Positions 24,459 through 64,000 of a stretch of 64,000 nt of DNA are shown here, piece by piece; positions within the stretch are counted from its first letter, which is position 1; each line of letters opens with the position of its first letter. The notes below the pieces were generated by a model. It was given only the letters and a program-made list of their open reading frames with translations, was not told the origin of the DNA and did not search any database. The DNA comes from Pegea sp. RAD2-039 (Eukaryota > Chordata > Thaliacea > Salpida > Salpidae), in contig JAQGEQ010000324.1 in assembly GCA_034620365.1 (NCBI GenBank), forward strand, positions 459,697 through 523,696, in the 5' to 3' direction. A program made the translations under genes and the position numbers.

Positions 24459-24894
24459 TGAACTTTTGTTTAATTTTACTTATCTAAACTTTTAAATTTA
24501 TCAGAAGTTCTTTATTCAAAAAGTTTGCTAGTTGATTAATTTTTTAAACTTCTGTTTATTACAAAAAAAAAAGTTATACTTTCAACATCAGCGATCTAAG
24601 CGATGTGTTTGATTATAACTTTGATTTGAGCCAACTCAGTTTAATAAAAAAAAGTTTAGCGCTTGAACTGACAACAACTCTTCGACCATCAGTACCAAGT
24701 CAGTAATAACTTGTCTTACAAACAAATCTTGAGCTTGGTGATTGAAGGTACTGAGGGCTCACTTGCTTCTAGCATTTTGGCTTAAAGCAGATATAGCAAT
24801 GCACTATTCAGTGATTAATGTTTATATGAACGTAGATAAGACCTTTAAATTTATCTAATTAAATAACTAGTAAATAACTAAATAATAGTGTCTA

Positions 24895-25105
24895 TCAATT
24901 GGAAAATTTTGTTAATAATTGACCATGCGTTGAAGAACATATTTAATGTGATAGAAGAATTGTCTTTTTGACGCTTGTGAGATTTGATGATGGGTTTTCT
25001 GTAGATTGATACCTTTGGTATTCACACTTATGTGCGGAAAGAGTTTAAAAAAAGAAGATGTGAGTTCAGTGATTAATTGCCAGTTCTGTTTGTTTAATAA
25101 TACCT
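24895..25105 (-). mobile_element. Decayed CR1-like LINE fragment (left arm)
   Basis: This segment resembles the ORF1/ORF2 junction of the intact LINE at about 38130-38340, sharing GAAAATTTTGTT, GCGTTGAA and the block AATTGTCTTTTTGAC. It is an older relative, broken and non-coding, lying just 3' of the NUDCD3-like gene. It is mirrored at about 63600-63810. Confidence 0.75.
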
Positions 25106-25236
25106 TCCTTATAATTCTTTGTCTTATTTAGACCCAAATTTGTTAATTTGAAAGCAAAATTCAATTTTATAATTTTACAAAACAAGTAATTCTTTTTTGT
25201 TCAAATATTTATTTATTTCAATTAATGAGAAAGAGA

Positions 25237-27158
25237 TTATTGACTTATATTAAACATTCTTGGGTCAAATTTTTGCCCTTTAAAAGGGGAACCTTCATTA
25301 TTCCATCCTTTCTTTAACATCTCATGAACATTCTGAAGAAAAAAGAAGAGTTTCTAAAACTATAAGTTTAAATATTCACAAAACTAACCAATTCGTGGCT
25401 TTGTGGTTTTCCGAGTCGTTTCTGGTTTGCATCAAATTTCAATTTATTTAAAACTGCGTTCTCTTCTTCGGTTAAATCTGCAGCGCTCCTTTCAGCAGAG
25501 ATATTCTCAATATCAATGTTTTCCTCATCAACTATTAACTTCTTCCACCAGATAGGCTTCAGTTTAGTTAAAGTAATCTTTAAGACAATCCAAATGTAAA
25601 TGAATCTTGAGTATCTAAACTTAATCTTACTTGTATATCTTTACTTTTCTCTAAGCTCCACATACTTTCATCTAGTTTCACTTCTTCATCTAATTCACCA
25701 TCTATTAGACTTATGGAGGTTTTATCATCTTCATTTCGTTCAATATTCACTTTTAAATGTTTCTTTCTGATATGTACGTGAACCTAAACATTAAAAATAA
25801 AATTTCAACCCAAAAAAGCTTCTACAAAACCTGTTTAGCCTTTTGTATGTGAGTAGGAATCTTTATCTTAACATCCACATCATCATAACTTTGAGACCAG
25901 CTGTAATTATTACGTACAGCTCCATTAAAACTATCTGGGTTTGCTTGAAATTGCTTTTGACTGAAATCAATTAAATCGAATTATTCATTTATTTTACTCA
26001 ATACATGGCTGATGACAAAGTATAGAGATCTTTACGAAATTGTTCAATGCAAAAGTTAAGACAGAGGTTAATGTTAAACTTTCTGGGAGTTTTTGCTAAT
26101 ATGAGATGTGAAACTGAGTCAAAGGCTTTGTGGTTGTCTTTATAGATGATATTGGTTGTTAAATTATTTGCTTAGAAATATAGCTACTGGTGGAGACAAA
26201 ACAACAGCTGATCACTGGAGGATCAAAATTGATAATCATAAAATTAGTTATTGTGGACAAGATAAGTCAGATTTTTTTGGATATAATCAATGGCAGTTAG
26301 ATTGCAAAACTAAACAAACGTTAAAGGTTTAGATGGTTGTTTTGTCTCAACAGTTTTTTGTTTGATCTTTTCATGATATTTTTTAGGTTTATCTTCTTTC
26401 ATTGAAGGCTTCTTTTCTATAAAACAAAAGTAATTAAAGTTGAAAGTTTTAGAAAAATCTTAATATAAAAAACCTTTCATCAGTTTTTGCAAAGCAACAT
26501 TCTTCTGAGCAATTTCTCGGTGATTCTTGAAAAACTAGAAAAAAAAATAGAAATAAAAACTATAAAACTTAACTTTTTAAAATTAAGTTAAGTTAAACCC
26601 TTTAACACTTTTTATGAATTTAATTAAACTTTTATAACAAATCAAATAAAAGTATTTAAAAAATGAAAATAAATTATTGTTAAAAGATAATTTAATGGAA
26701 AGTTCAACATAAAAAAGATTTTTGTTCAAATAATAAAAATATTTTTGAAATATTAAAATCATTAAAAACACTTAGAAAACTGAACATTCTGAATATTGTA
26801 TAAAATATATATTTATATATTATCTAATAATTTTTCACATGTTTATATTTAAGTTTAAAAATACCCTAAAAATCATTTTATTATAACTTTAACAAAAGAT
26901 AAAAACAAACTATTTGATTTAATTCATAAAATAGAAGATAAAAGCTGAAAGATTTTGATTCACATTAAGTAATAACTTTTCAGCCATGCCTTCAGGAAAT
27001 CCAACATTTGGTGATTCTTCTGTCAATATCCAAAAAAAATCTGTTTTTTCCCTTAAAAAACTAAAAATGATATCCATAAAACTTTCTAAGTTTCCTTCTT
27101 GTTGCAATATTCCCATCAAAGCAGTAAAATAAGATTCTTTTTTGTTATAGTTTGACAT
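25237..27158 (-). CDS. NUDCD3: NudC domain-containing protein 3-like co-chaperone (left-arm copy)
   Basis: Seven exons: 27158-26964, 26534-26474, 26416-26320, 25960-25831, 25783-25631, 25577-25389 and 25332-25237, giving about 306 aa. The family's human member is longer (about 360 aa), the difference lying in the acidic linker. An N-terminal helical region (ALMGILQQEGN...GFPEGMAEKLLLN) is followed by a short Lys-rich linker. The CS/p23-like domain is recognised by NYSWSQSYDDVDVKI and SMWSLEKSKDI. The near-invariant family tail KPQSHELNVHEMLKKGW...GSPFKGQKFDPRMFNIS is present. NUDCD3 proteins work with Hsp90 and stabilise dynein intermediate chain. The start is the first ATG in exon 1, which matches the family N terminus. 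Intron 3 holds a decayed LINE fragment and a 1-bp length difference from the right-arm copy. The reading frame appears intact in both arms. Confidence 0.92.
26030..26260 (-). mobile_element. Decayed LINE reverse-transcriptase fragment in NUDCD3 intron 3 (left arm)
   Basis: On the minus strand a frame reads NIIYKDNHKAFDSVSH followed by KFNINLCLNSCIEQF. This corresponds to the reverse-transcriptase motif with the first catalytic aspartate (usually YxDxxKAFDSV). Sequence upstream of it is rearranged. The flank TAGCTACTGGTGGAGAC recurs at about 28675. It is mirrored at about 62445-62675. Confidence 0.6.
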
Positions 27159-27199
27159 TTTTTTAAATTTTAAACTAAATTCTATAATCAAATAGAATA

Positions 27200-30100
27200 A
27201 TGATTAAAAATAAATTCTCAACAGAAATATTTTTTATTCAATTTTTAAAAATTAAAACATTATTAATTGGGATAAATAATTCATCAAAAGAAATAAGACA
27301 AACATAAAATAAATTTTTAAGATTTAATTTAGGTCAATAATAACAATAACATTTATTTCTTATTCTCCAAAATAAAATTCAATTTCATTTATATTTTATC
27401 AGAGCAAATATAATTGAATCACATCAAAATATTTTCAATTTATAATAATATTAACCAAAGAAGCAAAATTGAATACTAGATAAAATCATTTCAGAACAAT
27501 TTTAAAAATAATAAAATAATTTAGAATAATCTGGTTTAGACTAAAACTTATGCATTTTACCACTTTTAGTTCAAATATTTTTTAATGCTAAAAAAAATAT
27601 TTTTGATAAAATTTTTTAACAGTAAAACCATGACAAAATAAAAAATACAAAAAACAACATGAAACAATAAACTAAAGGAAGCAAAAATAATATAAACAAA
27701 TACATGATTAAATGTATAAATCAAATTTCTCATAAACTTTATTAACCTTGAAATATTCTAACATTCAGTTTACTTTTTACAAAAATTGATAAAAATATAA
27801 AAACAAATAAAAGAAATCCCATGAAAAACTTGCTTGTTGTTTATCTAAAAATTCAATTATTTAGAAATCCATTTTAAGAAAACTGAAAAAGCGACTTGAC
27901 AGTTTTGTTAACCCCAAAAGTAATAAATTATCATTTATATTATTTATGTAGAAGGTTTCTTTATATTTTTAGATGATTGAACTCTTTTTATTCAACTAAA
28001 ATAAATTTTCAAAATGTTAAAATAAATTTTCCTCCATTAAATTCATTCAACTTTTTATTTGTTACTAAGGTTACAAACAAGAACTTTATTCAAAATATCT
28101 TCGGTATATTGCAAAATTTGATACATAAAAGAAAATTAAGTACCTTAAAAGGATGCGTAAAAATTTCTGCTTAGAACAAGGTTGACGAAAAAATTAAATT
28201 TTGCTTTCATACCAATATGTTATAGAACTTGGATATATATTTTAACGAAAGCTTGTAATCTTTTTCGTCCTGGTAGCGGACTCAAACGTACACAAGATTA
28301 GCCTCCATCAATTTAATCTTACACTATCATCATAAACTACAGAATCTTGAGTGAATATTTTGTTGTTGATGTACATGATAAAGGCCCAACACTTAACGCC
28401 TTTGACAGACACTTTCCCAATCATTAGTTTATAGCTTTCTCGAGTTCAACACACAGCTTACTGTCCTTTCATACACTATTGGAATGCACCTCTTTACCTG
28501 GTCTTACCAAATTGAAAAACATGCTTTTTAATGGTTGTTAAAAAGGAGGGTAAACGTTAAATTTTCTGAAAGAAAAGTAAAAAGAATAATCAAAATTCGA
28601 TGTCAAATTGAATTAAAAGCTTTGCGTATATCTGTATAAAAGATATTAGCTGCTACAACATTTAATCAGAAACATAGCTACTGGGGGAGACAGCTGATCA
28701 CTGGAAGATCTTTCAGGAAGAAACCAAAATTGATATTCAGAAAGTGTATCTTTATGAAAAAGAATTTTGAGAGCTAAACCAGAGTCAGCACAGAAGAAAA
28801 GATTAAGAAATTTAAAGGTTCAACTTTCAACCAAGAACCTCAATAACTTGAAAAAAAATTGCGGCATAATATGCGTTGGCATATTATACAAATTAATCAA
28901 ACACATCCATACTAAAAGACCAATAATGTTTCTATCTTCATACTTTCTATAGACCTTTCTTGTTGTATGATTTTCTTCTTAGCAAGAATGTACATTTAAA
29001 CTTCACGGCTAGCACATTTATATGTTTATAGTTTATACATAATTGTAGTTCATTAAGGATAATTTAACTTGTTATACTGTTAAGTTTAAATGATGCAACG
29101 CGCAACCGATTGTATATTTTAAAGGAATTGTCAAAAGACAAGGCAACGACGAAACGTGTTTTCATTACATTCGAAGGCTGCTATCGTAGATAGTTCATCT
29201 GTTATTGTTAATGATACTATGAGACCAGCTTCCACACTTAGGAAAAGTTCTAGAAGGACAATTCCATTGACTAGATTCACCAATATCAAAAACCAGTTTC
29301 ATACCTAAGAAATACAATGAATATTTTAACGACTTTTTTTGAACAAATGTTGGATAATAATTCTTGTAAAATTACGCGTGGCGATGGTAGTATTGAAAAC
29401 CTTGAAATGTATGTAAATCTAAAAACTTTTAGTGGCGAGCAGTTTTTGTTTTGCTTTAAAAAGTATTATTTTAGGAATTGAGATTTTTTGATCGTATTGC
29501 ATTTATCTACAGATAATTTTGACTAAATAGAAACTCTAAAATATTTCAAAAAGTAACTTTAAAAAGCTCAATGTTACATTTATGTACTGATTATTAGTAA
29601 AAGTTAGTTTTATTTTTGAGTAGAAAATAAAGTTTTGTTTTGAATTCTTTTTGTATGTGAGCTAATAATATGAAATAAGTAATAATATCACAATTTATCA
29701 AGAAATTTTAATGAAAATTATGAGCTTTTAGATAACTTAAATTTTTGCAAATAGATCTTAAAACAGAAAACCGTTTTTTGACTGTTGAAATTCCGCATAA
29801 TAATTATTAGTTCTTTTATTCAAACATTGTTTTATTTTGTGTCTTCTTTTCAATAAAGATTTAAAAATGTAGAAAATTTTTACCCCTTAAGAATCCAAAA
29901 AATCAGTTTTAACTTGATTAAGTAGCTTTAGGACAAGTTCGATCATTAAATCGACGCATCCATTAAAAAGGAAATGATGACAGATTTGGGGTATGCTTAT
30001 GGAAAAGGTTTGTATAGCAACGGATACCCAGCTTTTAAAACAAGTTTTTTATTGCAAAAAATAATCGAAAGTCAAACATTTAGGTTTAGTTTAGCTAATA

Positions 30101-31130
30101 ATGTTTCTAGATATCTTTCAAAATTTACAATAACTATTTTTTATTTTAATGCTAGGACTGAACAAATGATAATAGTAGGGGTGTGTATACTTAAGGTAGG
30201 GACGACCGATGTTACATTTACCTTTCTAAAGCTCTCCATACGACACATCACACTCTTTCAACTGAAATTTTAAACAAAGTTTTAAGCTCTTGACTAAGTT
30301 TAAAAATTAAATTTAAGACTTAAAAGAAAATCAAAAACTATCTTTTTTACCAAAGACATTTTAAAAAATACTTTTTATGATATTATTCGACAAATATTAT
30401 TTAAATAACTTTTAAAAGTTTATTTTTTATCTAAACTGGTCACTACAGTTCCTTACTAGTTGCTTATTAGACATACCTTTCAAATTTTATTTTTAAGTTA
30501 AACATTCATTATAACTCTGAATTTTATTATATTCAAATTTTTGTTGTCTGAAAAAAAATAAATTGATAACAAATTGATGTAAACAGAGAAATCTATTTCA
30601 GAATCTTTATTCTGGAGACAAAAAAAAGATTTTTGCACAATTTTGCTTAGAATAAAAATAAGTTCATTTCAGTAATCATTATTTACTTTTAATCTTTTTT
30701 ATCTTAGTAAGTTATAATAGTTATTCAAAAAAGTTTATTTATAAATAATAAACCATTTTTCAATAAATTATGTGATTATATTTTTTACTTTAGTAATTTT
30801 CTGTAAATTTCCACTTAAAAATGCTTGACTAACTTTGGTTATAGAAATTTATTCAAATAAGATACTTTGTACTGTGAAAATAAATTAAAATCAGAAAATA
30901 GTTTAACAACTAATTCAGAGTTTAATATGAGTTAGTTAACTAAAATAGAAGAAATTAAGAAAAAAAACTATTCATTAGGCTCATAAGTAGCTTTCAGAGG
31001 AATTGTTTATAATTTACCAAAAAGTTTAATATGCTTATTTTTAGAATTACTAAACTTTTTTTTCTATTTATGCTACAAAATTTTTCATTCGTTGTTTTAC
31101 TATTTAAATATTCATAAAAATAGAACTTTC
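27200..31130. other. Intergenic region between NUDCD3-like and MMP genes (left arm)
   Basis: The two genes diverge from here. The outer half is plain AT-rich DNA. About 28380-28740 holds a LINE remnant listed separately. Open frames at 27977-28174, 28767-28952 and 29974-30273 are short, and at least one residue differs between arms in the last. I do not recognise them. A segment near 29100-29460 is less AT-rich and has a 54-codon ATG frame from about 29321, possibly transposon debris. Confidence 0.5.
28380..28740 (-). mobile_element. Decayed LINE-like remnant (left arm)
   Basis: AGCTGATCACTGGAAGATC preceded by TAGCTACTGGGGGAGAC matches the LINE fragment in NUDCD3 intron 3, so both derive from the same family. 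On the minus strand IYADIRKAF-like and DQVK-like snippets are interrupted by stops and frameshifts. It is mirrored in the right arm at about 59965-60325. Confidence 0.45.
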
Positions 31131-31136
31131 ATTTAG

Positions 31137-31144
31137 TATAAAAG
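31137..31144 (+). promoter_or_regulatory. TATA box of the MMP gene (left arm)
   Basis: TATAAAAG lies 64 bp upstream of the MMP start codon. This leaves room for a transcription start about 30 bp downstream and a 5' UTR of 30-40 nt. The same element is present in the right arm at 57561-57568. Confidence 0.6.
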
Positions 31145-31207
31145 GCAATGAATTTAGAAAAGTAAATCATAATCTGCTACAAAGTAACTCGGCAGTTTAA
31201 CTTAGCT

Positions 31208-34177
31208 ATGAAACGATTTATTCTAATCATTGCCCTGTGCGCTGTTGTCAATTCAATTTCATTAAAAAATGTAAGGTTTTACATTAACGTCACTGAGTTA
31301 GCTTAGCAAACAGTCGCGTTAATAATTTGTAGAAAAGAAGTATTTAAAATAATGATAACAAATTTTAGAAAAATCTTATTACTCATTAGTTTAAAATAAT
31401 TAATTTTTAACGATTTTGAAGGATAATGTTCAATCTCATAAGAACAAGAAAAAGGACAATTTGGTGGTGAAGTATCATGACCAACTGAATATATCGTCTG
31501 CTGAGAGTAAAGGTTTAGAAGCTACAGAAAAAGATTTATTTAACAAAACAACAGCATCAAAAAACGTCGAATCATTTTGTGGTTTTGAAAATGAGGTTCA
31601 AAAAACTTTGATAAAATTACTTTTATAAACAAGTAACCGAAAAATAGTTTTTAAAAGTGGAAGTTTTTAAATGTTGCTCATTATTTCATTTCTTAAATTA
31701 ATTGAAGGTTACGAAGAGTAATAACGTTCCTGTTGCTCTTCGAGTAGTATGGCGTAAAAAGGTCCTTACTTATAGGTTAGTAATTTGTGATTAGAATGTC
31801 TAATTATATGTAATATTTGTGGAGTTACATTAACTTTTTAATCATTTTTTAAAGTTTTATAAATTTTTCATCGAAAATTTATTGGAACAAGCAACGCGAG
31901 TTGATGAAAAAAGCTTTTGATATATGGAGCGAACACATTCAGTTAACTTTCGTGGAAACTTGGAGAGACTATAATGCAGATATTAAAATCTCATTTCAAA
32001 GATGGCATCATCTTGATTGTCATAAATATCCTTTTGATGGACCTTCTGGAGTTCTTGCACATGCATATTATCCTGTAAATGGTGATATTCATTTTGATGA
32101 AGATGAAAATTGGTCAGATGATACTAAAGGAAAATCAGGTTAGAAATATTTTTCTGTGTTAAAAAGAAAATTTTTATAAAATTTTTATAAAATTTTTTGA
32201 TTTGATAAAACTGTTATAAATTATCTTTTATAAATTTATCAAAATTTGCTCAAATGTGATAAAAATTTATTATTTATAATATTTATGAAACATTTATCAG
32301 AATGAAATCATTTTCAATTAAAACAAAGTGTTAAAAAGTTCTTGTATCTAAAGAATTTTTTTTTTAATTTCTCATTAAATAGAATTGATCGACTTTTTCC
32401 TTGTGGCTGTCCATGAAATTGGTCACTCAATAGGCTTGCAGCACAGTAACGATAAAGAATCTATCATGTTTAGAAAATACAAAGAACGCAAGACTGCTGG
32501 GTTTAGATTACCACAACCCGATGTTAACGAGGTTGTTCAGTTGTATGGTGAGTAACTTTAAATAGAAAATAGCCAAAAACTAGATGTTCAAATATAGGTA
32601 GAAGAAGTGGATCCTCAAAAACTATTACTTCATCGTTACCAAGAAATACTAAAGAAGGGACTAAAACAACTACAACTAAACCCACCATAACAACTTCTAC
32701 AGCTGAATCAATTCCAAAACTTTGTAATCTTGATTCGTATGATTCTGTTTCTTACTTTTTGGGAGATTTCTTTATTTTCAAGTAAGTAAAATTCAGTTTA
32801 AATTACAACAGAGTTTTGTTTGTTAGTCGAAGACACTTATAAAGATATATAGAGAAATAACAATTTGTATTTGATGGAAACAGGGGAATGTATTATTGGA
32901 GGAAAATACGAGATACAAGTTATTTCAGAGGACCAACGAGGATTACGAGGTTTTTTAGAAGTTTTACTGGAAAAGTTACAGCTGCTTTTGAAAACCCAAC
33001 TAAAAATCGTATCAAACTATTTAATGGTAAAATTACAAATCTTCTATTTCCTTGAGTAATTTAGCCTAACGTTTCAGCAAAGCACTTGTATGTTGAACAT
33101 TTCTCAAAGTTTGTAAATAAGTTGGTTAAGTTGACTTGTCACCTAAAACCACTCTAAACTCAAGCGTTAAATAAATAAGAACCAGTCTTATAGATAACTT
33201 TAGTACATACAGACCTTGTGATTGGTAACTAAAATATTAGCAGGTAGTAGATAAGATGACTTGTTTTTTAAATTAATCATCTTTGAAGAAAGTAATTTAG
33301 AGAACTTTTAATTACAAGTTATTGTTTATTTAGTATTTAAAACTTGATGTAAAACTTTTATAATATACTAAAGTGGGTTTACTAACAATTTGCTAAATGA
33401 CTTCAGTCTACAATGAGCAAAAACATTTGTTATTTTATTCAATCAAAAACCATTGATATCAATAAGATTGTTTTTATACTGATTTAAATCCGTGTTTGAA
33501 TAAAATTATCATTAAGGTGATACTGTATCAGAGTTTCGTTTCACAAGACTGATTAAGGGGCCAACTAAAGTCAGCAATTTTGGATTAAATAGTAAAGTTG
33601 AAGCAGCCGCATATATAGAAGAAACGGATGAAACTATTGTTTACGATGGTAAGTAAATAAGGTATCATAATCAAATTTTAAGGATATTTTTATGAAATTG
33701 ATTCAAAAACATAATTTTGTAACCATTTATTTTTTATAGCTACATTTTTTCTTAATTTTCAACAGATAAATAAGATATTTGAATTTGTCAAAATACTTTA
33801 TTAACTTCACTGAAGAAACTTAGACATTTAAAATTACTGAGACTTTGAAGAAATAAGTTGCTAACTGAAATCTTTGCAGGAAAATTATTCTGGAAAACTA
33901 AAGGTCGAGACCGCTACTTTGCTAAAACATTTTATGATGCACCACAGAAATTAGACAGTATGTTTACAAAACGTTCGGAAGGTAATGATAATGCAAACAA
34001 AAACTCGTCAAAGTTTAAATGAATTGAACTGTCATGAAATAATATTAACGTAATTTTCTCACAGGTTTTGATAAACTGTATTTTGTTTTCAACACGGAGT
34101 ATTATGTTCATGACTTGAAAAAAGAAACTACATTTGGACCATATTCATTCGCCAAAGATTTTCTTGGATGTGACTGA
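31208..34177 (+). CDS. Secreted matrix metalloproteinase with hemopexin domain (left-arm copy)
   Basis: Ten exons: 31208-31270, 31422-31595, 31708-31775, 31855-32138, 32383-32547, 32598-32781, 32884-33026, 33517-33648, 33880-33981 and 34065-34177. All phases close, giving 475 aa. Exon 1 encodes signal peptide MKRFILIIALCAVVNS. The catalytic domain includes LTYSFINF, AFDIWSEHIQLTF, PFDGPSGVLAHAYYP and GDIHFDEDENW. The zinc site is HEIGHSIGLQH, followed by Met-turn SIMF. A Thr-rich hinge (TKTTTTKPTITTST) leads to a four-blade hemopexin-like domain opening with a Cys (LCNLDSYDSV) and ending LGCD, the expected disulfide pair. It has no membrane anchor. The role would be cleavage of extracellular matrix. 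The propeptide is only about 70 residues with FCGFEN where PRCGxPD is usual, and no clear furin RxKR site precedes the catalytic domain. AATAAA follows at 34295. Confidence 0.95.
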
Positions 34178-34702
34178 GTTATTTATGCTCAATGTCTAAA
34201 TAATTTGTAAACTTTCGAATATTTGATGATCTGACTTTAGTTCAACAAATATCAAGTCTTATATATTTTATCGATTCTTTTATTATATGCAGAAAATAAA
34301 TTGAAAAATGTATCTAATGGTTATTTGAAGTTCTATAGAAAGTAATGAAAATATTTTGTTTTTTTATTCACTTTTAGATTCAAGAGGTTCTTACAAATAA
34401 TCTTTCAGCAAATAAAGACTTCAATCTTAGTTTTCAGAAATACACTTTATCTACTAATAAGATTTATCATTTTACAGATTATAGTTATTTCCTTTCAATC
34501 AATCTACTAAACAATTTATTTCTAAATTTACTCAATCAAAAGAATTTAAGATCAAAATTCTTTAACCTAATAGTTTGTCAATCTTTTGAGTTTACTTTAA
34601 AAGCAAAATTAAGTTGTTTACAACTTTATTATAATTGTAAGAAGATTAGAAGTTTTATTAATATTTATATTATGGTAAAGGGTATTTTTACATTTTCAAC
34701 CT
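34178..34702. other. 3' flank of the MMP gene (left arm)
   Basis: AT-rich sequence with a polyadenylation signal AATAAA at 34295-34300 for the MMP gene. No other feature is evident before the SINE-bearing repeat begins. Confidence 0.6.
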
Positions 34703-34830
34703 AATGACCAAATCAATCAAAATTTGCCACTTAAGTTGGATTCACAAATGTTTATAACTATATTGAAATAAAAAGTTCAAACAACAACATAGTTTAAACA
34801 TAATCCAAAAGTAAGTTGCAGTATTATAAT

Positions 34831-35020
34831 GTCCTGCTTAGTGGCGAAGCGGTTACTACACCTACCTTCTAGCTCGGAAGTACCGGGTTCGACCCCAGGT
34901 GGAGACATATAAGACTCCTGAGAAAAACCATAGAAAACTCGTGAGAATGTGTGTTAGAGAGATGTGCTCTCTTTAGGCACCCTCCTTCGCATTTATATAT
35001 ATAAATAAAAATAAATAATA
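34831..35020 (+). mobile_element. tRNA-derived SINE (left arm)
   Basis: The head at 34831-34907 resembles a tRNA. A-box-like TAGTGGCGAAGCGG and B-box GGTTCGACCCC are spaced as in a Pol III promoter. The body ends in a tail (34941-34993) starting GAGAATGTGTGTTAG and running through TAGGCACCCTCCTTCGC. An (AAATA)-type simple repeat follows. The tail is nearly identical to the 3' end of the LINE inserted next door, suggesting that the SINE uses that LINE's machinery. Confidence 0.9.
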
Positions 35021-35179
35021 CTCTGCCGTGATTACACTAATTAAAATTACATCAGGCGTATAAATAAAATTTGAACAACATTCATCTTTAAGATGCCATC
35101 TTTATTACTTTACTAGTAAAGAATTTTGCAAATTTACATATACGTTTTTTATTTATTTATTTATTTATTTATTACAATA

Positions 35180-35232
35180 AATGTGAAGGAGGGTGCCTAA
35201 AAAGAGCACCTCTCGCTAACACACATTCTCAC
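35180..35232 (-). repeat. LINE 3' end shared with the SINE tail
   Basis: Read on the minus strand this is GAGAATGTGTGTTAG, then a GGTGCTC core, then TAGGCACCCTCCTTC. It aligns with the SINE tail at 34941-34993 with only a few differences. Such shared 3' ends are recognised by the LINE reverse transcriptase in known SINE/LINE pairs. Confidence 0.9.
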
Positions 35233-35317
35233 AAATTAGATCTATTTGACGTGTAAACGAAAAAGCATATGACAATGAAGAACTGCACAGAATCATAGTA
35301 TTGTAAAAGAGAAAAAT

Positions 35318-38300
35318 TCACAGTTTAGAAATGGCAATGTTGGCGATATTATAACAATTCAGCTTTTTCTTGAACAGCATAAGTGATTTTGACATGACAA
35401 TCTCTGATGGCAGATTGTTCCATGTACTGATTATGCGGTATGAGAAAAAACTTAATCTGGTTAACGTAGCTGGTGGAGTGGGCTTATTAAGATGTAATTT
35501 ATTTCTTCTAAGTTGATATAACTTGAGGGAGGGACTAATGGAGAAAAAGTCATCAAACTGAAGATCAATTAGGTTGTGAATAATTTTAAAAATCAGAATA
35601 AGGTCGTATTTGATTCTTCGGATTTCCAAAGAATCTAGATTGAAGAAGCTGAGACGATGGTTATAACTCCCGTATTTGATATTAAGTTTCCTGCAAACCA
35701 ATCTCGTAAATGTTGCCTGAACAGATTCGATTTTTCTGATATCACCAACTTGATATGGCATCCATGCACTGATATTGTATTCAAGAATAGGGCGTATGTA
35801 CAGTTTGAAAAGGTTGACGAAAAACCATGGATCTTTAGAATTAAAAGTCTTTATGATGAGGTGGACAAGCTTGATAGATTTTCCAAAGATTCTGGAAACA
35901 TAACTGTGCCATTTGAAGTCAGATGTCAGAGTAATGCCGAGGTCTATGACTGAGGATACTCGTTCAAGAATGGATCCATTGATGTAGTATTGGTTGCTGA
36001 AGTTGGCCGCTGGCTTACGGGAGAATGTTATAACTTCAGACTTTGTTGGCTGGATTTTAAGTTGCCAATTCGCAGACCAGTTTTCTACAATGTTTAGTGC
36101 AGTTTGGAGTTTTGAGTGAGAACCAGATAATAGCTTGATGTCATCTGCATACACAAACACACTGACATTGTCTACTGTTATTAGTCTTCTGATGAGGTCT
36201 TCAATGAAAATCAAAAAGAGAAGTGGACCCAGGACGGAACCTTGAGGAACGCCGCTGGTGACTTTACTAGGAGTAGATAAAGATCTTTCTACACGGGTTC
36301 GTTGGGTTCTACCTGATAAGAAATCTTCAATCCATTTTAAGATAGAGTTGCTGATTTTTATGTTTTTCAATACAGTAATGAGCTTGTTGTGTGGAACAGA
36401 ATCAAACGCTTTAGCAAAATCAAGGTATATGATGTCACATGGAGTATTACTTTCGTAATGAGCTGTAAGCTCATTGAAAAAAGTGAGATGTTGAGTCAAA
36501 GAAGATCTTTGCTTAACAAAGCCATGCTGGGCATCAGATATTAGATGATGCTCCGTCAAATGGCTAGTTATATGGTTGTGAATGATATGTTCTTGAGTTC
36601 TGCAGATAACCGAAGTCAGCGAAACTGGTCTGTAGTTAAGTGCAGTGTTTCTGGGACCTTTCTTATAAATTGGAGTAATAATAGCATTCTTCCAAATTTG
36701 TGGAAGTCTTCCCCGCTTAAGAGTCATGTTAAAGAGTAGCGATAAGGGTAGCGCTAAAGAAGAAGTACTTTTTCTTAAAAACAAAGCTGGGATTTGATCT
36801 GGGGTGTTGGAAACTGTTGATTTTAGAGAAGAAATAGCCTTAGATACTATATCAACTGTTATGTCTAGATCTACCATCTCAGAGATATTTGAAAGGATAT
36901 TGGAGTAGGAAATAGTAGGAGTATTGCCATCATCGGTTATAAAAACCTTTTCAAATTGTTTGTTTAGCAATTCAGCTTTATTCTTTGGTTCCATCACCAG
37001 CTGATTGGCGTTATCAAGCAAGGGAGGTAGATGAGATCTCGCCTTAAGCTTGTGATTAATGAAGCCAAAAAACGTTTTCTTGCTAGGTGAAGATAAGATT
37101 GCACTTTCTTTTCCTAAATAGAGGCTATAAACTGATTTCTTGTAGACTAGACAAAGATCTTTGTATAGAGGTTTGATGGAAGGATCTGCTTTAGTTTGTT
37201 TGTATAAGAGGTTTTTCAAATGCTGTAAATTCCTTAAATATCTTGGCAAGTGTGGTTTTTTGTTGACTCTATATAAAGGTATGAACTTTTTAATTGACTC
37301 ATTAACAATGTTAGTAAACCTTGAGTAGATATCATTGATGTCTTCGGTAGAGTTGAAAACAGAAATCCAGTCAACACCTGATAAAAACTTGTTTATACTG
37401 TTATAATTTCCACGATAAAAGTTCCGTATGCTTGGAGTTTTAACGTTCGTAGAAAAAGTTTGTTGGAGCTTGAATTCAATCATGTTGTGATCGCATGTCA
37501 GAGCAAAAGGTTCATTTTGATCAACGTAGATAACGTTATCAGGTTTTGACGTGATGAGAAGATCCAAAGTATTACCACTAACTTGGGTTGGAAAAGTAAC
37601 CATCTGAGATAGATTATTGGCATCAAGGAAGTTTACAAAGACATGACTCAGATTGGCTAAATTAGTTTTGTCTCCATTCAAATTAAACATTTTTCCATTG
37701 AATGCTAAATTTGGGTTATTCCAATCAATTCTACTAAAATTAAAATCCCCGAGAATATACATCTCAGGACAAACAAGGCTTTTCAGAACCTTCAATAAGG
37801 CCTTAATAGTAACCTCATCGTTAACTTTAGACGGTGGTAGGTAGGTACATATAAAGCGGGAAAACTTAGACTTTGAGTAATGAAAATTGAAAGCAATAAT
37901 CTCAAATCCTGGGCAATCAATGGTATCTATCTTAATTCTTGAAATCATGGGTGCCAGTGATGTTTTATAGATTACACAAACACCGCCGCCTCTATCAAAC
38001 AGTCTATCACAGCGCAAAGCACGAAAAAGATCACTGTCATCCAGAAAGGAGTCAGGATAAAAGGGTTTCAACCAAGTTTCGGTAATGAAAACAAATGTAA
38101 AATCTTGAGAAAGCAAAAGAGCTTTCAATTCGAAAATTTTGTTGACAATTGACCGTGCGTTGAAAAGCATACCTAATATAAAAGAAAAATTGTCTTTTTG
38201 ACACTTGTAAGATTTGGTGGTAGTCTTCTGTGTACTGTTATCTTGGGCTGGAAGCATAGTATTAATAATTTTGTGCGAAGAGAGGTTGAATAAGGGTGAT

Positions 38301-38365
38301 GTGGGTCCAGTGGTTATTTTGCACTTCCGTTTTTTGAAAAGACCTTCACAATCTGTAAAGCCCAT
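35318..38365 (-). CDS. LINE ORF2: endonuclease and reverse transcriptase
   Basis: 1015 aa. The N-terminal third is an APE-type endonuclease: FNARSIVNKIFEL, ITETWL with the catalytic Glu, GGGVCVIYK, ILGDFNFSRIDW and CDHNMIEF near residue 300. The reverse transcriptase follows at about residues 500-800: NYRPVSLTSV, YLDFAKAFDSVPH, SGVPQGSVLGPLLF, VYADDIKLL with the YADD active site, and VIDLGITLTSDFKW. The C-terminal part (LEYNISAWMPY onward) is the usual CR1/Jockey-group tail. It nicks target DNA and reverse-transcribes the element RNA. It overlaps ORF1 by 52 nt in another frame, so translation probably depends on reinitiation or termination coupling. The clade call CR1-like rests on motif style and the PHD-type ORF1. 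Confidence 0.95.
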   Translation of the reverse strand: MGFTDCEGLFKKRKCKITTGPTSPLFNLSSHKIINTMLPAQDNSTQKTTTKSYKCQKDNFSFILGMLFNARSIVNKIFELKALLLSQDFTFVFITETWLKPFYPDSFLDDSDLFRALRCDRLFDRGGGVCVIYKTSLAPMISRIKIDTIDCPGFEIIAFNFHYSKSKFSRFICTYLPPSKVNDEVTIKALLKVLKSLVCPEMYILGDFNFSRIDWNNPNLAFNGKMFNLNGDKTNLANLSHVFVNFLDANNLSQMVTFPTQVSGNTLDLLITSKPDNVIYVDQNEPFALTCDHNMIEFKLQQTFSTNVKTPSIRNFYRGNYNSINKFLSGVDWISVFNSTEDINDIYSRFTNIVNESIKKFIPLYRVNKKPHLPRYLRNLQHLKNLLYKQTKADPSIKPLYKDLCLVYKKSVYSLYLGKESAILSSPSKKTFFGFINHKLKARSHLPPLLDNANQLVMEPKNKAELLNKQFEKVFITDDGNTPTISYSNILSNISEMVDLDITVDIVSKAISSLKSTVSNTPDQIPALFLRKSTSSLALPLSLLFNMTLKRGRLPQIWKNAIITPIYKKGPRNTALNYRPVSLTSVICRTQEHIIHNHITSHLTEHHLISDAQHGFVKQRSSLTQHLTFFNELTAHYESNTPCDIIYLDFAKAFDSVPHNKLITVLKNIKISNSILKWIEDFLSGRTQRTRVERSLSTPSKVTSGVPQGSVLGPLLFLIFIEDLIRRLITVDNVSVFVYADDIKLLSGSHSKLQTALNIVENWSANWQLKIQPTKSEVITFSRKPAANFSNQYYINGSILERVSSVIDLGITLTSDFKWHSYVSRIFGKSIKLVHLIIKTFNSKDPWFFVNLFKLYIRPILEYNISAWMPYQVGDIRKIESVQATFTRLVCRKLNIKYGSYNHRLSFFNLDSLEIRRIKYDLILIFKIIHNLIDLQFDDFFSISPSLKLYQLRRNKLHLNKPTPPATLTRLSFFSYRIISTWNNLPSEIVMSKSLMLFKKKLNCYNIANIAISKL

Positions 38366-39309
38366 GGTGGACCTCGAACTTTGTATTTGAAATCAGTTGG
38401 TTGCTCTTTCTGATTTCGGCTGTACGCCTCTTTTAGAAGACGCTTATTTTCTACGCGATCGTCTTCACACATATCATGTGCTACTCTGATGCCCTGGAAT
38501 TTTTCCTCCTGCTTAAGTTTATACAGCTTAGCAAGAAACTTACGTTTGTCCCATCTTTCCTGAAAGGAAACTTTTAACGGTCTTTTATGATTTGATCTTT
38601 TTGCCCCGAGTCTGGTCATTGAAACTTTTGGAGTGTCCACAGCACCAAGGCCTTGAGTGCACATTTGATTAAAAGTCTTGATGTCATCGTCTTTATCAGT
38701 CTCAGGGACACCAAAGATGATGACATTGTTTTCTCTATCCTCCCGGTCCAGAGTAAGTTTCTTGTGCGTGTCAGTAACCTTCTTGGCAAGAAGTTGCACC
38801 ACGCTAGTACCCTTTTCGGATCCAGAATTACCAACAACTGAGGCCCACGTGAGAGGCTTCTTTGTGGAGGCCTCCAGTTCATCCATAGATTTGGATAAGA
38901 TAGAAATCTTTTCATTGATTTTGGCAACATCGTTGCCGATTTCAGATTTTAATTTGGTCAATTCAGTGGATATGGTGTTGCTGATGTCAGACAATAGGCT
39001 TTTGTTAGTGTTGGACGAGGTAGTTGTTTTGTCCATAGATCTACATTTAATGCAGGACCAACAAAATCCCACTTGCTGCATTTTATTATTTTCAAATATA
39101 TCATATAATTTTTTATTCACATCACTACAAGTGAGGTGAAACCTAGAGAGGCATTTGATGCAATCTATTGCCAGATCTTTACCAGAGCAAGTTTTGTTAC
39201 AAGCTTGGCAATTGCCATTGCAAGCTTGTTTTGAAGAACTTGGTTTGCTTGGGTCTTTTGGAGCTTTTGACCGCAAGGTCCTGTCATTTGTATCTACCAT
39301 AGTTTCCAT
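38314..39309 (-). CDS. LINE ORF1: PHD-type zinc-finger nucleic-acid-binding protein
   Basis: 331 aa. Residues about 34-90 form a Cys/His cluster of PHD-finger type (CQACNKTC, DCIKCLSRFHLTC, CWSCIKC). A coiled-coil-like segment follows around residues 100-150 (ISTELTKLKSEIGNDVAKI). The C-terminal region has ENNVIIFGVPE and RPLKVSF, resembling the RRM/CTD-like part of other LINE ORF1 proteins. PHD-type ORF1 is typical of the CR1 group. It is expected to coat the element RNA. The first ATG gives the complete domain, and the ORF is intact. Confidence 0.88.
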   Translation of the reverse strand: METMVDTNDRTLRSKAPKDPSKPSSSKQACNGNCQACNKTCSGKDLAIDCIKCLSRFHLTCSDVNKKLYDIFENNKMQQVGFCWSCIKCRSMDKTTTSSNTNKSLLSDISNTISTELTKLKSEIGNDVAKINEKISILSKSMDELEASTKKPLTWASVVGNSGSEKGTSVVQLLAKKVTDTHKKLTLDREDRENNVIIFGVPETDKDDDIKTFNQMCTQGLGAVDTPKVSMTRLGAKRSNHKRPLKVSFQERWDKRKFLAKLYKLKQEEKFQGIRVAHDMCEDDRVENKRLLKEAYSRNQKEQPTDFKYKVRGPPWALQIVKVFSKNGSAK

Positions 39310-40059
39310 GATAGATTTTTAGTAACTCCCACCAAAGTATACAAGGTTAATAAATGTGTATCCACCAAAGATTTATAAAAGATTTTTACTGTCACCAGCC
39401 ACAAAATATAATATATATATAATAAACAATTCACTTCCTAGAAATAACTTTATCACAACTTATGAGCACTTATTCAAATAGAACCTATAACCTGAAACTT
39501 ATTCAAATAGAATTTACTTACGATGTTTAGTTATTCCATTGATTACGTGGGTGCAGGTAACAAATCATACAGCTATAAAAGCGACTATGACACAAAATGA
39601 CTGGAGAGAATTAAAAGAAAAGACCACATTAATCAAAATTAAATTAAATTAGAAACATCAGAAAACATAATTTAACACAGATATGAATTAAAAAGAGATA
39701 CAAATAAAAAATTATGAAAACAGTAGAATAATTAACCAAAAGTCAAGAAAACTACTTAAGTCATTTTTGTAAACTTAGCTTGAATCTCATTTATCGGCTC
39801 CTTTTTAAAGATGTCAGCCATTTTTGGTTAAATCCTTAATTTTATCATGTATCTTGGTGCCAAAAAACCAATTTTTGATTGACTAACTCTTTAATTGTTA
39901 AAACTTTCTCTTTTCTTAACTATTTGTAGTTCCAAACTTCGTTTTTTCAACCCTAAGGATCTGTTTGCAATTTTTCTTCTTTCGTCTACTTCCTAATCAT
40001 TGTTGGCATCACATAATAATATAAACACTTTAAATGTGGTATCTCAAATGGTAGTATGA

Positions 40060-41310
40060 GTTGGGTGGTATTTGTAGCATGAAGCAAGTTGATGGAGAAG
40101 GTTTGTCAACTTCTGGCTTGCTTTAAAGAGTGTTGGAGCCGTCTAGAGGGTTATTTGATATAGCCAAGATTTACAGCCTTTGAGAAAAAGGTGTTTCATT
40201 ATTTGAAGTGTTGATTTAGTGCCACTAAAGTAGCGTCATCAGCAAAAAAGGGTTTAATTTAATGTGGGAAGTTTTACTTTTATAGTTTGGATGTATTGGA
40301 CTGAATAGGCAGTCATCAAGGCAGTACCTAATATAAACTACCTCATCGTGACTACTGTTTGATATTGGCATAGAATCATACTGAAAAGTAGAGAAAAATG
40401 TTGATGCAAGTGAAAAGATCATTGTTTTTACTATGTTCAATCATTTTTATCGCAAACGGTGGGAAGAGGTTATCACCACACCTTATTGATTCTTTTAGAT
40501 CTTGATGCAGTTGCACCACAAGGTAAACTGTATTGGACATCGAAGACATTTGATAATCTTCCACAAGACTTTTCTAACAACAGGATTAAAGCTTTCCCAA
40601 GTACAGACCCTCAATTTTAAGACTAAGAATTATGTCAATAGTGCTCTTAATACTAGTACGATGCTCTTTAAAAGTAAGAAATATGGTTATTCTACAAAAA
40701 TATTTTTGAGTTTTGTAACAATTAAAAATGTTTGGCAATGAAATGACGCTTGAATGAAGCTTCTCGTTCTCGAAAAAAACTAGAACAAGACAGGGTGCGA
40801 CTAACAATTGGTTTATTGAGACTTGCAGCAAGGCAAATTTCCTTAAAACTAGCTTTCTTGTAATATTGTTTCTTATTAAATTACCATGTTAAAAACATAT
40901 CTACTTCTCTACATTGTAGGCTGCTTGAGCGTCCAGAGTGCCGCCAGATATTGCTGTCGTCTCTGTGAAATGTAAAAGAACTAAAAAGTGTTTTGGGTTT
41001 TTCTCTTCTTTAAAGTTACTTCGTCATCTTTGCCCTTCAGTTGTTTTCAGAGTAGAGAGGACCGTTAGGAGCGATCTGCTGCGATATATTACCAATTCCT
41101 AATATTGATGTTCAGCGATTTCATATCTTCAATATCTAAAAGCCGAAAAAAGACGGACAATGCTATGCTTGCCTTTTCAGAGCTCACTATACACAGATTC
41201 TTTGGGAATTCCGTCTTCCATTCGAAGTATGTGACCGAGCAAGGGAAGTTTGTGCTGGCTTAGCATGTTTTGTGTCGTTGCAGGCTGGATGTTGATGACA
41301 GCGTCATTGG
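40060..41310 (-). mobile_element. Decayed LINE: reverse-transcriptase and C-terminal remnants (left arm)
   Basis: Read on the minus strand, fragments in several frames give FFADDATLVALNQ, corresponding to the reverse-transcriptase YADD/FADD box. They also give LLGHILRMEDGIPKESVY, typical of the C-terminal part of LINE polyproteins (GHxLRM...P). Stops and frameshifts are frequent, so it is non-functional. It is mirrored at 51756-53006. Chance ORFs of 62-81 codons in this segment are shadows. Confidence 0.7.
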
Positions 41311-41584
41311 AGCTACCAAAAAGTAAAGTAACGAGCTGCATACATCACCAGCTATAAATTTAGAGTCTTACATCTCATTGTGCTGTCTTAAAATAACGAA
41401 CTAAGCCATTTTACTTAGGTACTGTAAACTTTTCTTAGTCGCTTATTATTTATAATTATACATATTTATTTAGTTATCAGTATTATATATTTAATAATTA
41501 TACATATCACAAAGATGCTTATATAATTTTATTCATTTCCTAAATGTGAAAACGTAACAAAGAATTATTTCAACACAAATTTCT

Positions 41585-46480: not shown

Positions 46481-47479
46481 GCTGTTGCTACTGCTATTAT
46501 CAAACATCCTAAAATGGCATTGTTGATGGTTTATAATTTTTAGGAATGACTTGTAGATATTACAACTTAAAAAATTTGATGTTAAAAATACAGTTATGTT
46601 CCTCAAAAACTGTCCATATAAAATGCAAAGAGAGAATTTTTTGAACAAGATTTTTTCAACTTTGATTAAATCAATAAACAGTAAAATGTTAAATATTTTA
46701 AAATCCAAATCCAAATTCAATATTAATCTATAATTTTTAACTATTGTTATAGAACTTTTCAAAGGATGTTTTTACAAATATGCAGTTGTTCCAATGCTTC
46801 TGTAATCTTACAAGTTAAAATATTGTAATGAAAACGCTCTAAAACTTTAAATAGTCTTCAAATATTTTTATGGGAAAATTTTACAACCTTTTAAAGCTTG
46901 TCTACTTTTGTAAATTTGTACTAATTTCTTTGTAAAGAAATCGTTTTAAAATATTAAAACATTATATTAATATTAAGATACTTATTTAAAAATGTTCTCA
47001 TTTTAGCTTGAACCCCATTGCTTACTGATAAAGGAATAAAACATTTTATAACCCCTACAAGCCATCTAGCTGAACATCTTTTGAGATAATTCAAGAGGTT
47101 CATAACAAGTTGATTGAAACTTAAAATTCTTGTAGGTAAAATTTGTTTATTTCAAATGGAGCTGCTTATTGCTTAATGCAGTTTCTAATCATAATCAATT
47201 GAAATTGCTAAAAATCATAATCACATAATATGCTAAGACAAAAGTTAGTAGTAAGTTTTTCTTAAATTTTGAAATGAAATTAAGATTAGTAACAAATGCA
47301 TAATTTAATTCATGTCACAATATATGTTTTAGGATTTTTTTACCAGCTAATTTTTGGCTAATACAGCTGTTACAAATAATTAAATTCAATTCAATTTTTT
47401 AGTTGACTTACTTATATCCCAAAAGTTAGAGAAACTTGCTCAATAATCAGTACTCGAATAACTTATGCTCACAGGTTTA

Positions 47480-47880
47480 TATAAATATAAGAATTGAAGT
47501 AAAAACCGTGTCACCAATAATTATAAACCAAAAAAGCTAAAAGATGAAAAAGTTTTAACGGCAGTAAAGACTTGGCTGGAGTACAGTTTATAGGTTATGG
47601 GTAACATTAAACACTGAACTTTAGCAACATTTTAAAAAGAAAGTTAAGAAAAGTTCCAAATTGATTATCAAAACTTTTTCGAATTCCTTTGATGTTGTTT
47701 CTAATGCACCAATCATAACTCGAACTATTTTGGTTTCATTTTCCAAATTTCTCATATTTCGACTTAAATTCATGTTTTTGTTTTTCTACTCAAATTCTTT
47801 GATACATTTGTGTCACTTGGTACTGCGACGTCTATTAGTAAACATTTTTTTAAAATTCTATTGTTATTATTATCATTTTT
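47480..47880 (-). mobile_element. Decayed LINE 3' end, copy 2
   Basis: Minus-strand fragments CLLIDVAVPSDTNVS and, after a frameshift, KIVRVMIGALETTSKEFEKV match the same LINE region as copy 1 and extend further to the C terminus. The segment around 47550-47600 (GCAGTAAAGACTTGG) matches copy 1 near 45860 (GCAGTAAAGATTTCG), so both share a 3' UTR. The plus-strand ORF at 47661-47882 is the antisense shadow. Confidence 0.65.
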
Positions 47881-49406
47881 GAATCTAAATATTACAAGTC
47901 AACATTAAGTAATATAAACAATGTAATTTTTCTTTTGAAATATAATTTATGGCCTTAAAAATATTTTGTAATAATTTCTTTATATAAGAAGCATTGGAAT
48001 TCTTAACATCCACTTAATCTTACTGTAGACAGTTTGGTTAGAACAAGTAGACAAGACTTTAGAAACCAAGATTGCCAAGGCCAAGATTCTTCCATAAAAA
48101 ACTGAACGGTATCATTTATTATTTTTTTGTTTGGTGACTTTCTTAAAAAAGTTTCAAAGAAAATAAATCAAAGAAATTTTTTATTTGATAGTTAATAAAT
48201 CTTTGATAATATGTTTAAATCTTTAATAAATAATCTATATAAAAATTATATATAAAATTAAATTTAAAATTTAGTAGAGAAGTCAATATAAATTGATCTG
48301 TTTTATAGAAATGACTTTTTATTTTTATTTATGCATATTGTTACAACAAAAGTTATCATAAGTAGCTTTTAAGAATTTAATATTTATGTTAGTTGCTATA
48401 TTCATAAAATAATCTTCTTAAGTAAAACATCATTAAATTTAGATGATCTCAAAATTGCAAATCAAATTTAATATATTATTTTTGTTTTGATTACAAAATA
48501 GAGATCATTCTGTGTAAAATAAATTAACATTCGAACACAATCTAAAGTATACTTGAAGAATTTTAAAAGTTTCTTAGTAAACATATCTGAATACTTTCAT
48601 GTTTGTTTTCATTGAGTTATATGTTATTCAGATTTATGCTTGTTGAATAAGTGTATCAAATACTGTTATAAGGTTTAATATTTGTATTTTGTTGTCTACT
48701 TCAGTTTTGTTTTAAACCTAGATTTGAATAGAATGCAAAATACGACTGATAAAAATCCATTACTTTATAAATTGTATTGCTTCAAACAAAATGATAATAT
48801 CATAATACGTAAGAAGAGCTTGCAGGTTTGAAGTAAATAAAAGCAGTTACTATTACAGTTTTAGAAAATGTTTTAGTTCCGTTAGTTTTAAATAAACTTT
48901 ATTTGTTTTAACGACAATTTTTTTTTTCTTTCAGCTGATTTAGGGCTTTCGCAATTAAAACTTTCTCACAATATATTACATAATGTAAAAGCGTTGAAAA
49001 AAGTTTTGTTTGATTTTTGATTATATAATCAGTAACAAAAGTATGAAAGACTCCATCCAGGGTTTTTATCTTTTACTGTAACTATAATTGATCGCTTATG
49101 AATTGTTGATTAATCTATTGTTTGGTTTGATTTACTTTAAAAAACTCACGTTTCCACTTCTCAATAAATTAACTTTCCGATCGTAATCCAGCATTATATG
49201 ACTTCTACTTAAACTAAATAATCATTGTGCAATTTCCATTGTTTAACGAATTTGGCTAAAAATGGGCTCCCACATAAAATATTTGTTCAGGATTTATTTA
49301 GTTACTAAAAGTCCTTTCAATAATTTTGCAAAAAAAATACTTTTACTCGCTGTGAAAGCCATCTGTCATTTGTAGCCACGCATTGCAAAAATGAATAAAA
49401 TTAGAA
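47881..49406. other. Upstream region of the right TGF-beta copy
   Basis: AT-rich single-copy sequence within the window. It is the 5' flank of the intact TGF-beta gene and probably holds its promoter. TTATTTGCAG just inside the right arm could be a splice acceptor, so a 5' non-coding exon may lie somewhere here. No specific element can be supported. Confidence 0.5.
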
Positions 49407-49461: not shown

Positions 49462-51481
49462 ATGAACAAGTTGATTTTTTTTGCTGGTTGTATCTTATCG
49501 TTGGTTCTAATGGCACCACTTGCTTCTACAAGCTTCATCAAGGCTAATGAGAAGGCTTTAGAAGAAGGAAAAAGAGAAATACATAATTTAACAGAGTCTC
49601 TTTCAACATCTGATCCTAGCGGTTTGTACAATCAATCTATGTTTAACCAGGAGCATGCTAATAAAGAAATAAAATTAGATAACTGCGAAGAGAATGATAC
49701 AGTCTGTTTGCTACATCAACGTTTACGAGTCAAAAGAATCAAACAGTTTAAGATTGACTTGTTGAAGCAGTTGAAAATGAAAGAACCACCAATCGTGAGC
49801 AAGAGTGAGTTGCCCAGTCAACTTACTATCGCATCATTGAAGAAAAGACATGGAATCGATCATTTTGAAAAACGATCTGAAATCAACTCTCAAAAAATGA
49901 AAATTGAAAAGAAGGAAGTTATCAGTCTGGCCAAGCTAAGTATGTCGTTATATTTTCTTAGTTTATATAAGTAATTTAAATTTATAAAGTATTCTACTGA
50001 TTAAGCGTGAAAAATCAGTGAGTTGATTGCTGGTAAAGTTTTCATTTTTTTTTGTGTTTTAAAACTTTCTAAATTTCACTTCCACTAGAAATGGATGGAG
50101 AAAGTGAAGAAGGGTGCTACTTTGAATTGACTGATGCAGAAAAGAAGTTCAAAGCTCGAAAAGCAACTTTGTGGCTTTATATTCAACCCAATGCCACACG
50201 GATTGTGCCCAGTGCTGCTCACATCACTTTTATACAATTTGAAAAAGCGGAAAACGGAAGTTACATTCCTGTAACAGGACCAACACTTCTTATCCTTATT
50301 ACATCTGATAAAGGTCATTGGAAAAAGATTGAAATAACTGATCATGTCAACAGAGTGCTTACTAATCAAAGTATAAGTCAAATGATGAAAGTAGTACCTG
50401 AAAACGATGCTCAAGATCTTGTAATGGCAGCTAGTGAAGATCAATTTGCATTTGTAAGTTTGTTTTCTGTTTATGACATTAATATTACAAACTTAAAAAG
50501 ATTTAAAAAAATAGTTTTTTTCTTAAACAAAAGTATTTTCTGATGATTCTGTTGTGCTAGTTGATTTTGGTCTTGAGTCTGCTTTTGATGTAAAGAGATG
50601 ACAACTATTTAAAGACATTCAAAAATTCATGAATGAATTTTTATTTTTCATTTATTGCAGTTTTTGAAATGACTTGAGTAAAATATATTAAAACGTTTAT
50701 AACCTTGAAAATATATTTTTAACTTAAGTTTATTGTTTTCTTACGATATTATGTTTTTAAATGAAGTTTCTTGTAAATTGATGCTAAATGAACCAAATAT
50801 AGTATTTTTATGCCAAAATATGATATTGCCAAAATATGCTGCCAAAATATAGTATTTTCATGTTTTATTTAAAATTAAAAACGTTTAATAATTTGAATGA
50901 ATGAAGTAACTTAAAATTCATGACTTAAATTCTTTAGATAATTCTTGAAATTAAAAAAAAACGTTTAAAGTAACCTTCAATTATTTCATGTAAACTTTGA
51001 ATAAATTAATTAAAGTATGTTAAAGGCTTATACCTTTATCTTTAGATAATGATTTTATATGGTATTTCAGAAGCCGTACATTCATCTCACACTTGTAGAA
51101 GACACTACCGTACTGAGAAGAGGAAAACGTTCTTCTGACTCTCGACCACGGCCAGAGTGCTATGGACAGAATGCACATCTTCATTGCTGTATGTTTGACT
51201 TGGAAATAAACTTCAAGCAAGTGGGCTGGGATTTTGTTGTCTTCCCAAAAAGTTTCAATGCTAAGTACTGCTCTGGTAGTTGTGATTATGCTCATACTCG
51301 GGATACGATGAGAAGCAGGCTAGTAGCTCATGAAGCTGATTATTTTACCCAAGAAGAAGCTGCGAGTTGCTGCGCACCTAAAACGATGGACCCAATTAGT
51401 ATTATTTACCATGACGATGAGAGCAATGTTGTCATCTCAGAAATTGATGAAATGGTGATTTCAGGCTGTAGATGTGTTTAA
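49462..51481 (+). CDS. TGF-beta superfamily ligand, activin/myostatin-like (intact right-arm copy)
   Basis: Three exons: 49462-49939, 50089-50453 and 51071-51481, giving 417 aa. Signal peptide MNKLIFFAGCILSLVLMAP. The propeptide includes ATLWLYIQP and KKIEITDHVNRVL, similar to the LWLYI and V...VL segments of activin and myostatin propeptides. A furin-type site LRRGKR precedes a mature domain of about 116 residues. Its cysteines follow the family knot: ECYGQ, HCC, VGWDFVVFPKSFNAKYCSGSC, SCCAPK and a terminal CRCV. Nine cysteines, with CC near the start, fit the TGF-beta/activin/myostatin type rather than BMPs. The product would be a secreted disulfide-linked dimer acting on type I/II receptor kinases. 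The short QNAHLHCC loop is divergent, so orthology (activin, myoglianin or other) is open. Some distance upstream lies its own unique flank. Confidence 0.93.
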
Positions 51482-63467: not shown

Positions 63468-63599
63468 TCTCTTTCTCATTAATTGAAATAAATAAATATT
63501 TGAACAAAAAAGAATTACTTGTTTTGTAAAATTATAAAATTGAATTTTGCTTTCAAATTAACAAATTTGGGTCTAAATAAGACAAAGAATTATAAGGAA

Positions 63600-63810
63600 G
63601 GTATTATTAAACAAACAGAACTGGCAATTAATCACTGAACTCACATCTTCTTTTTTTAAACTCTTTCCGCACATAAGTGTGAATACCAAAGGTATCAATC
63701 TACAGAAAACCCATCATCAAATCTCACAAGCGTCAAAAAGACAATTCTTCTATCACATTAAATATGTTCTTCAACGCATGGTCAATTATTAACAAAATTT
63801 TCCAATTGAT
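63600..63810 (+). mobile_element. Decayed CR1-like LINE fragment (right arm)
   Basis: Mirror of 24895-25105, related to the ORF1/ORF2 junction of the intact LINE at 38130-38340. It lies just 3' of the right NUDCD3-like gene. Confidence 0.72.
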
Positions 63811-64000
63811 AGACACTATTATTTAGTTATTTACTAGTTATTTAATTAGATAAATTTAAAGGTCTTATCTACGTTCATATAAACATTAATCACTGAATAG
63901 TGCATTGCTATATCTGCTTTAAGCCAAAATGCTAGAAGCAAGTGAGCCCTCAGTACCTTCAATCACCAAGCTCAAGATTTGTTTGTAAGACAAGTTATTA

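Follow-up and report, generated by a model that had tools for sequence, protein, structure and literature searches.

Large inverted repeats have been described from several animal genomes, and some of them bear directly on the locus analysed here. Human inverted duplications explained by the fold-back model consist of inverted copies around an unduplicated spacer; the 21 spacers sequenced in the cited work range from 766 to 70,466 bp with a median of 3,428 bp, 13 of the junctions show 2-8 bp of inverted microhomology, and template insertions are mentioned at complex breakpoints (PMC3907307). The palindromes of the human Y chromosome, e.g., P6, possess inverted arms with an identity near 99.9%, and conversion between their arms was shown with population data (PMC3723533). 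In the tunicate Botryllus schlosseri, palindromes made of many-gene synteny blocks raised the question of uncollapsed haplotypes, and were judged to be real on the basis of read depth, duplicated BUSCO genes, and CRAQ (PMC12448946). Adineta vaga and Folsomia candida, too, are reported to have homologous blocks of genes that are inverted relative to each other within a scaffold (PMC5916493, PMC7953838, PMC5490193). Those of A. vaga are absent from A. ricciae, and scaffolding errors were raised in that account for breaks in collinearity (PMC5916493), whereas the F. candida palindromes are described as having a wide Ks range, which speaks against concerted evolution (PMC5490193). Palindromes in published assemblies can also be created by erroneous scaffolding (PMC7953838). 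A literature search, which was not aimed at the species by name, found no published description of the present locus.

The locus lies at the end of contig C59 (JAQGEQ010000324.1, 523,696 bases) in an assembly of 105.7 Mb and 387 contigs. The window, i.e., the whole stretch of DNA that was analysed, comprises the final 64,000 bases of this contig, so that its position 64000 is the terminal base of the contig. A giant, nearly perfect inverted repeat had been claimed here in an earlier note, and self-BLAST of the window bears the claim out: the left arm (24704-43658, forward strand) pairs in reverse with the right arm (64000-49407, reverse strand, reaching the contig end) at about 99.88% outside a LINE at 35160-39511 that is enclosed by the left arm only. 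More precisely, 24704-35159 matches the reverse complement of 64000-53546 at 99.876%, and 39512-43658 that of 53554-49407 at 99.879%. The coordinate sums given in the same note, 93066 and 88705, proved to be correct to a single base, and the two indels account for the shifts. Between the arms lies a non-palindromic spacer of 5,748 bp (43659-49406). The left arm measures 18,955 bp (14,603 bp without the LINE) and the right arm 14,594 bp, and the 9-base gap in size that remains when the LINE is excluded corresponds to a short repeat next to this element. Over the roughly 14.6 kb that were aligned, the arms differ by 15 substitutions (10 transitions and 5 transversions), or 0.10%, and by two homopolymer indels of one base each, one base at the edge of the LINE (35156) being excluded from the count. 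The differences nearest the inner junction are an indel at 75 bp and a substitution at 91 bp, and the inner ends of both arms fall on the same base. A match of 99.9% on the kilobase scale is far above chance. The arms are two copies longer than 1 kb, at least 90% alike and in opposite orientation on one contig, as a segmental duplication is defined. With queries from 24600-33000 and 39512-43658, no near-identical arm DNA was found elsewhere in the assembly, the two copies on this contig and a third, partial copy aside.

This third copy (43665-44471, forward strand, 807 bp) consists of 34702-35159 joined to 39512-39860, with the LINE site empty. It begins 6 bp past the inner end of the left arm and adjoins that arm only. 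It differs from both arms by 7 substitutions, at identical sites, and by a 9-bp insertion. Its divergence from the arms (7 in 798 bp, or 0.88%) thus stands against 15 in 14,603 bp (0.10%) between the arms (Fisher p 8e-5), a contrast that would be expected if the third copy had split off before the arms and the LINE had come last, or if all three had a joint origin and the arms were later converted by each other. Past the third copy, the spacer gives a single full-length match in the genome, parts of it being dispersed repeats, and the copies are thus separated by a single-copy spacer, as the fold-back model has it. One of these parts, 45700-46500, is a dispersed repeat found in many places at about 66-73%. 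A search of 44472-49406 for inverted self-homology returned short, weak matches only, the best being 70 columns at 71%.

The LINE (35160-39511, reverse strand) is a full-length element of 4,352 bp with two long open frames, in which Pfam recognizes RVT_1 and endonuclease domains. At least 28 other copies of more than 4 kb at 96-100% exist in the genome, which indicates that the element is young, and its site is empty in the right arm and the third copy alike. A SINE-like repeat (34824-35018, forward strand), labelled as tRNA-derived by eye, is present in the arm, in the third copy, and upstream. Ordering the events by means of the upstream SINE copy was attempted and dropped, as two polarisable sites, one arm-derived and one third-copy-derived, were too few.

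Each arm carries the block of three genes that the earlier note had named, with Pfam support in the left arm. There, a NUDCD3-like gene (25237-27158, reverse strand; Nudc_N and CS) has both its start and its stop inside the arm, and is followed by a matrix metalloproteinase gene (31208-34177, forward strand; Matrixin), for which the bounds are approximate, and a gene for a TGF-beta-family ligand (41585-43603, reverse strand; TGF_beta), for which the signal-peptide frame is shifted. The right copy of the ligand gene (49462-51481, forward strand; 3' end approximate) has its signal peptide in frame. The best named matches of the spliced NUDCD3 model come from the ascidians Ciona intestinalis (50%), Clavelina lepadiformis (46%), and Phallusia mammillata (45%), two top matches being nameless, and this makes a tunicate the likely host. 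The closest solved relatives of the ligand domain are GDF11 and GDF8. A relative of the metalloproteinase region, 72-73% similar, lies at C6:1286793-1290542. In ten more short frames, taken from the spacer, the arm, and the flank outside it, Pfam recognized no family except for one match at chance level (E 0.09).

Several of the differences between the arms fall in these genes, for which exons were read by hand. The one at 25900 is synonymous in NUDCD3, the one at 32708 turns a metalloproteinase Ser into Pro, and those at 43567 and 43583 lie within the first TGF-beta exon. The difference at 42565 is exonic by rough script bounds and intronic by a donor-like splice site, and we prefer the latter reading. 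The one-base homopolymer difference at 43583 shifts the frame of the signal peptide in the left TGF-beta copy, although it may stem from an error in sequencing. As the start codon of TGF-beta is situated 55 bp within the arm, counted from the inner end, the two TGF-beta copies have different upstream DNA, and so probably just one of them yields a normal secreted ligand.

At its outer end, the repeat meets a dispersed satellite unit (24673-24783, forward strand), which forms arrays with 113-bp spacing elsewhere. The contig end is the mirror of 24704 and falls inside this satellite stretch, where the right arm is cut. The earlier note has the arm running on beyond the window; this is unsupported, as the contig stops at 64000, within the satellite unit. 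A 221-base query around the stretch gave 552 matches; those listed are centred on 24673-24783, some of them 113 bp apart, and the closest match elsewhere among them is 89% alike, while none elsewhere in the genome passed E 1e-40. Satellite-type units account for about 0.3% of a sample of 104 kb, and the coincidence of the contig end with such a unit, although spotted after the fact, is suggestive. A related 52-bp tandem fills the final 500 bases of contig C3. On the simplest reading, the second arm would end at, or enter, satellite DNA. Neither a second copy of the left flank (20704-24703) nor a contig carrying its outer continuation was found in the assembly. Just outside the left arm lies a tRNA-Pro (AGG) gene (24387-24458), with similar matches of 70-100 bases on several contigs, and farther out, at 7843-8203, a 70-bp unit forms a tandem array of 5.2 copies with 97% matches, in or beside the 2-kb stretch richest in G+C.

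As a control, we tested 12 other contig ends, taken from 20 after 8 repeats had been discarded by eye. With the best 40 of 301 candidates scored, at least 9 of the 12 have a second near-exact copy somewhere, which for at least 2 of these is inverted and on the same contig, and 3 match only themselves. The tested contig ends thus tend to sit in recent duplicates, some of them inverted. The tail of contig C11 holds an inverted repeat with arms 99.94% alike over 3,349 bp around a non-palindromic centre, together with a second pair of arms (863 columns at 96.6%). The head of contig C5 repeats this structure in the same order, with arms 99.47% alike over 4,910 columns, and the two contigs are 99.2-99.6% alike; they may represent alleles or a second duplication. 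Their recurrence means that inverted repeats of similar design are reproducible in the assembly. It is no proof for the repeat on C59, as a habit of the assembler would likewise yield several. Two further contig ends may be mentioned: C22:1-80 has an exact inverted copy at C22:46978-47057, 47 kb inside the same contig, and the head of C125 is telomere-like, with seven TTAGGG/CCCTAA words in its first 500 bases.

When compared with the known systems, the locus is similar to the human fold-back cases in having inverted copies around an unduplicated spacer, which is also of comparable size, and its 807-bp third copy may be set beside the template insertions mentioned there. The human cases differ in that the sizes noted for them are megabases and that they come with terminal deletions or translocations in patients (PMC3907307). 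Moreover, the inverted microhomology at the right inner junction is 0 bp when the junction sequences are compared by eye, and we therefore do not class the repeat under the fold-back mechanism. Its arm identity (99.88% by BLAST, LINE excluded) lies above the 99% by which Y-type palindromes are recognized and is close to that of P6. However, in contrast to the Y palindromes, conversion is here a possibility, and sex linkage is not known (PMC3723533). The likeness to B. schlosseri lies in inverted gene blocks of a tunicate and in the same question of uncollapsed haplotypes, which here is approached from assembly sequence alone (PMC12448946). Like the blocks of A. vaga and F. candida, the two arms lie on one scaffold, and the warning about erroneous scaffolding (PMC7953838) is to be set against a window that contains no N.

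In our opinion, the structure is probably a young inverted segmental duplication, which is a known kind of structure, and came about by a complex repair or replication event. A segment of about 14.6 kb with three genes would have been duplicated at a distance of about 5.7 kb, in reverse orientation, when repair or replication after a break copied it the wrong way round. A template switch may have taken place in the process and would have left the 807-bp templated insertion at one inner junction, and the LINE would have entered the left arm only, after the duplication. A single event may lie behind the whole structure, with the satellite as the presumed site of the outer end. The right arm appears to be the older copy, because its TGF-beta frame is intact and the inserted segment is found at the left junction only. 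The duplication is supported by the presence of the LINE in one arm with an empty site in the right arm and the third copy, and by a spacer that has no arm-like inverted symmetry. In addition, with 15 substitutions and twice as many transitions as transversions, the arms resemble a pair of evolved copies rather than a single molecule that was read two times. The confinement of near-identical arm DNA to this contig in the regions searched, the position of the contig end in a satellite unit, and the independent recurrence of inverted repeats on C11 and C5 count on the same side. Against it count the termination of the contig inside the second arm, with the outer continuation of the left flank on no other contig, a divergence of 0.10% that is within the allelic range, and the right inner junction with its 0 bp of inverted microhomology. 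Also, the inverted copies at at least 2 of the 12 other contig ends could reflect an assembler habit, and the satellite at the contig end has no match above 89% among those listed, so an array beyond it is conjecture.

An assembly join of any sort seems unlikely to us. The version in which two haplotypes were joined, which by itself has a slightly smaller chance, takes the arms to be two alleles and places a false junction at 49406/49407, where the contig would turn back on the second allele. This is consistent with a contig that terminates in the second arm, with a left flank and a spacer that are single-copy, and with an allele-like arm divergence of 0.10%, and a heterozygous LINE would account for the difference in length. 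However, alleles should continue alike past the inner end, whereas the left arm leads to the third copy and the right arm to unrelated DNA; haplotypes alike to 99.9% along 14.6 kb would have to lose their homology right at the inner arm end. Palindromy up to the join, which is to be expected in this case, is not seen, and one would have to assume a chimeric junction or a further structural difference as well. Furthermore, C11 and C5, if they are alleles, give about 0.25-0.5% substitutions (0.4-0.8% with gaps), which is above 0.10%. The plain head-to-head haplotype join suggested as an alternative in the earlier note is thus a poor fit, whereas its young palindromic duplication fits best and its gene conversion is kept as an option. 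A fold-back chimera, in which a strand re-primes on its own displaced strand during library preparation or whole-genome amplification, would also give the anatomy of arm, loop, and arm, and palindromic reads are known from amplified tardigrade DNA, where they are reported as about one-third of the mitochondrial reads (PMC13265396). However, one molecule should give identical arms, and a 4.35-kb LINE together with substitutions that begin 91 bp from the junction make such an origin very improbable.

A variant of the young duplication and compatible with it, although doubtful in its own right, is the idea that the inverted duplication is older and that gene conversion has kept the arms alike, with the third copy escaping conversion and recording the true age. 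The position of the third copy, which starts 6 bp past the arm, would suit an origin in the same event, yet this copy is far more diverged (Fisher p 8e-5), although a two-step history, or the other homologue as a template, explains this equally well. The differences between the arms are partly clustered, with 7 within 1.4 kb (simulated p 0.011) and 6 within 1 kb (p 0.019), window sizes that were picked after viewing the data; however, three other spacing tests were non-significant (2-kb window, p 0.069; gap variance, p 0.16; longest gap, p 0.40), and conversion did not remove the LINE. A fuller version, to which we give somewhat less credence again, would see in the locus a gene-bearing palindrome of a small tunicate-like genome, with arms homogenised by conversion, an 807-bp fragment serving as the unconverted clock of the founding event, and TGF-beta copies with different upstream DNA, without a known tie to a sex chromosome.

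What the locus means depends on which of these explanations holds. In the case of an assembly join, three genes are double-counted, and the other inverted contig ends of the assembly merit equal scrutiny. If real, the repeat is an inverted duplication that bears genes and is very young, set in a compact animal genome, and the third copy, the arms, and the LINE record a series of events that can be read. NUDCD3 and the metalloproteinase would then each be present twice, with nearly identical coding sequences. The locus could also serve for studying the loss or gain of function in a newly inverted copy of a signalling gene, as well as possible conversion between the arms.
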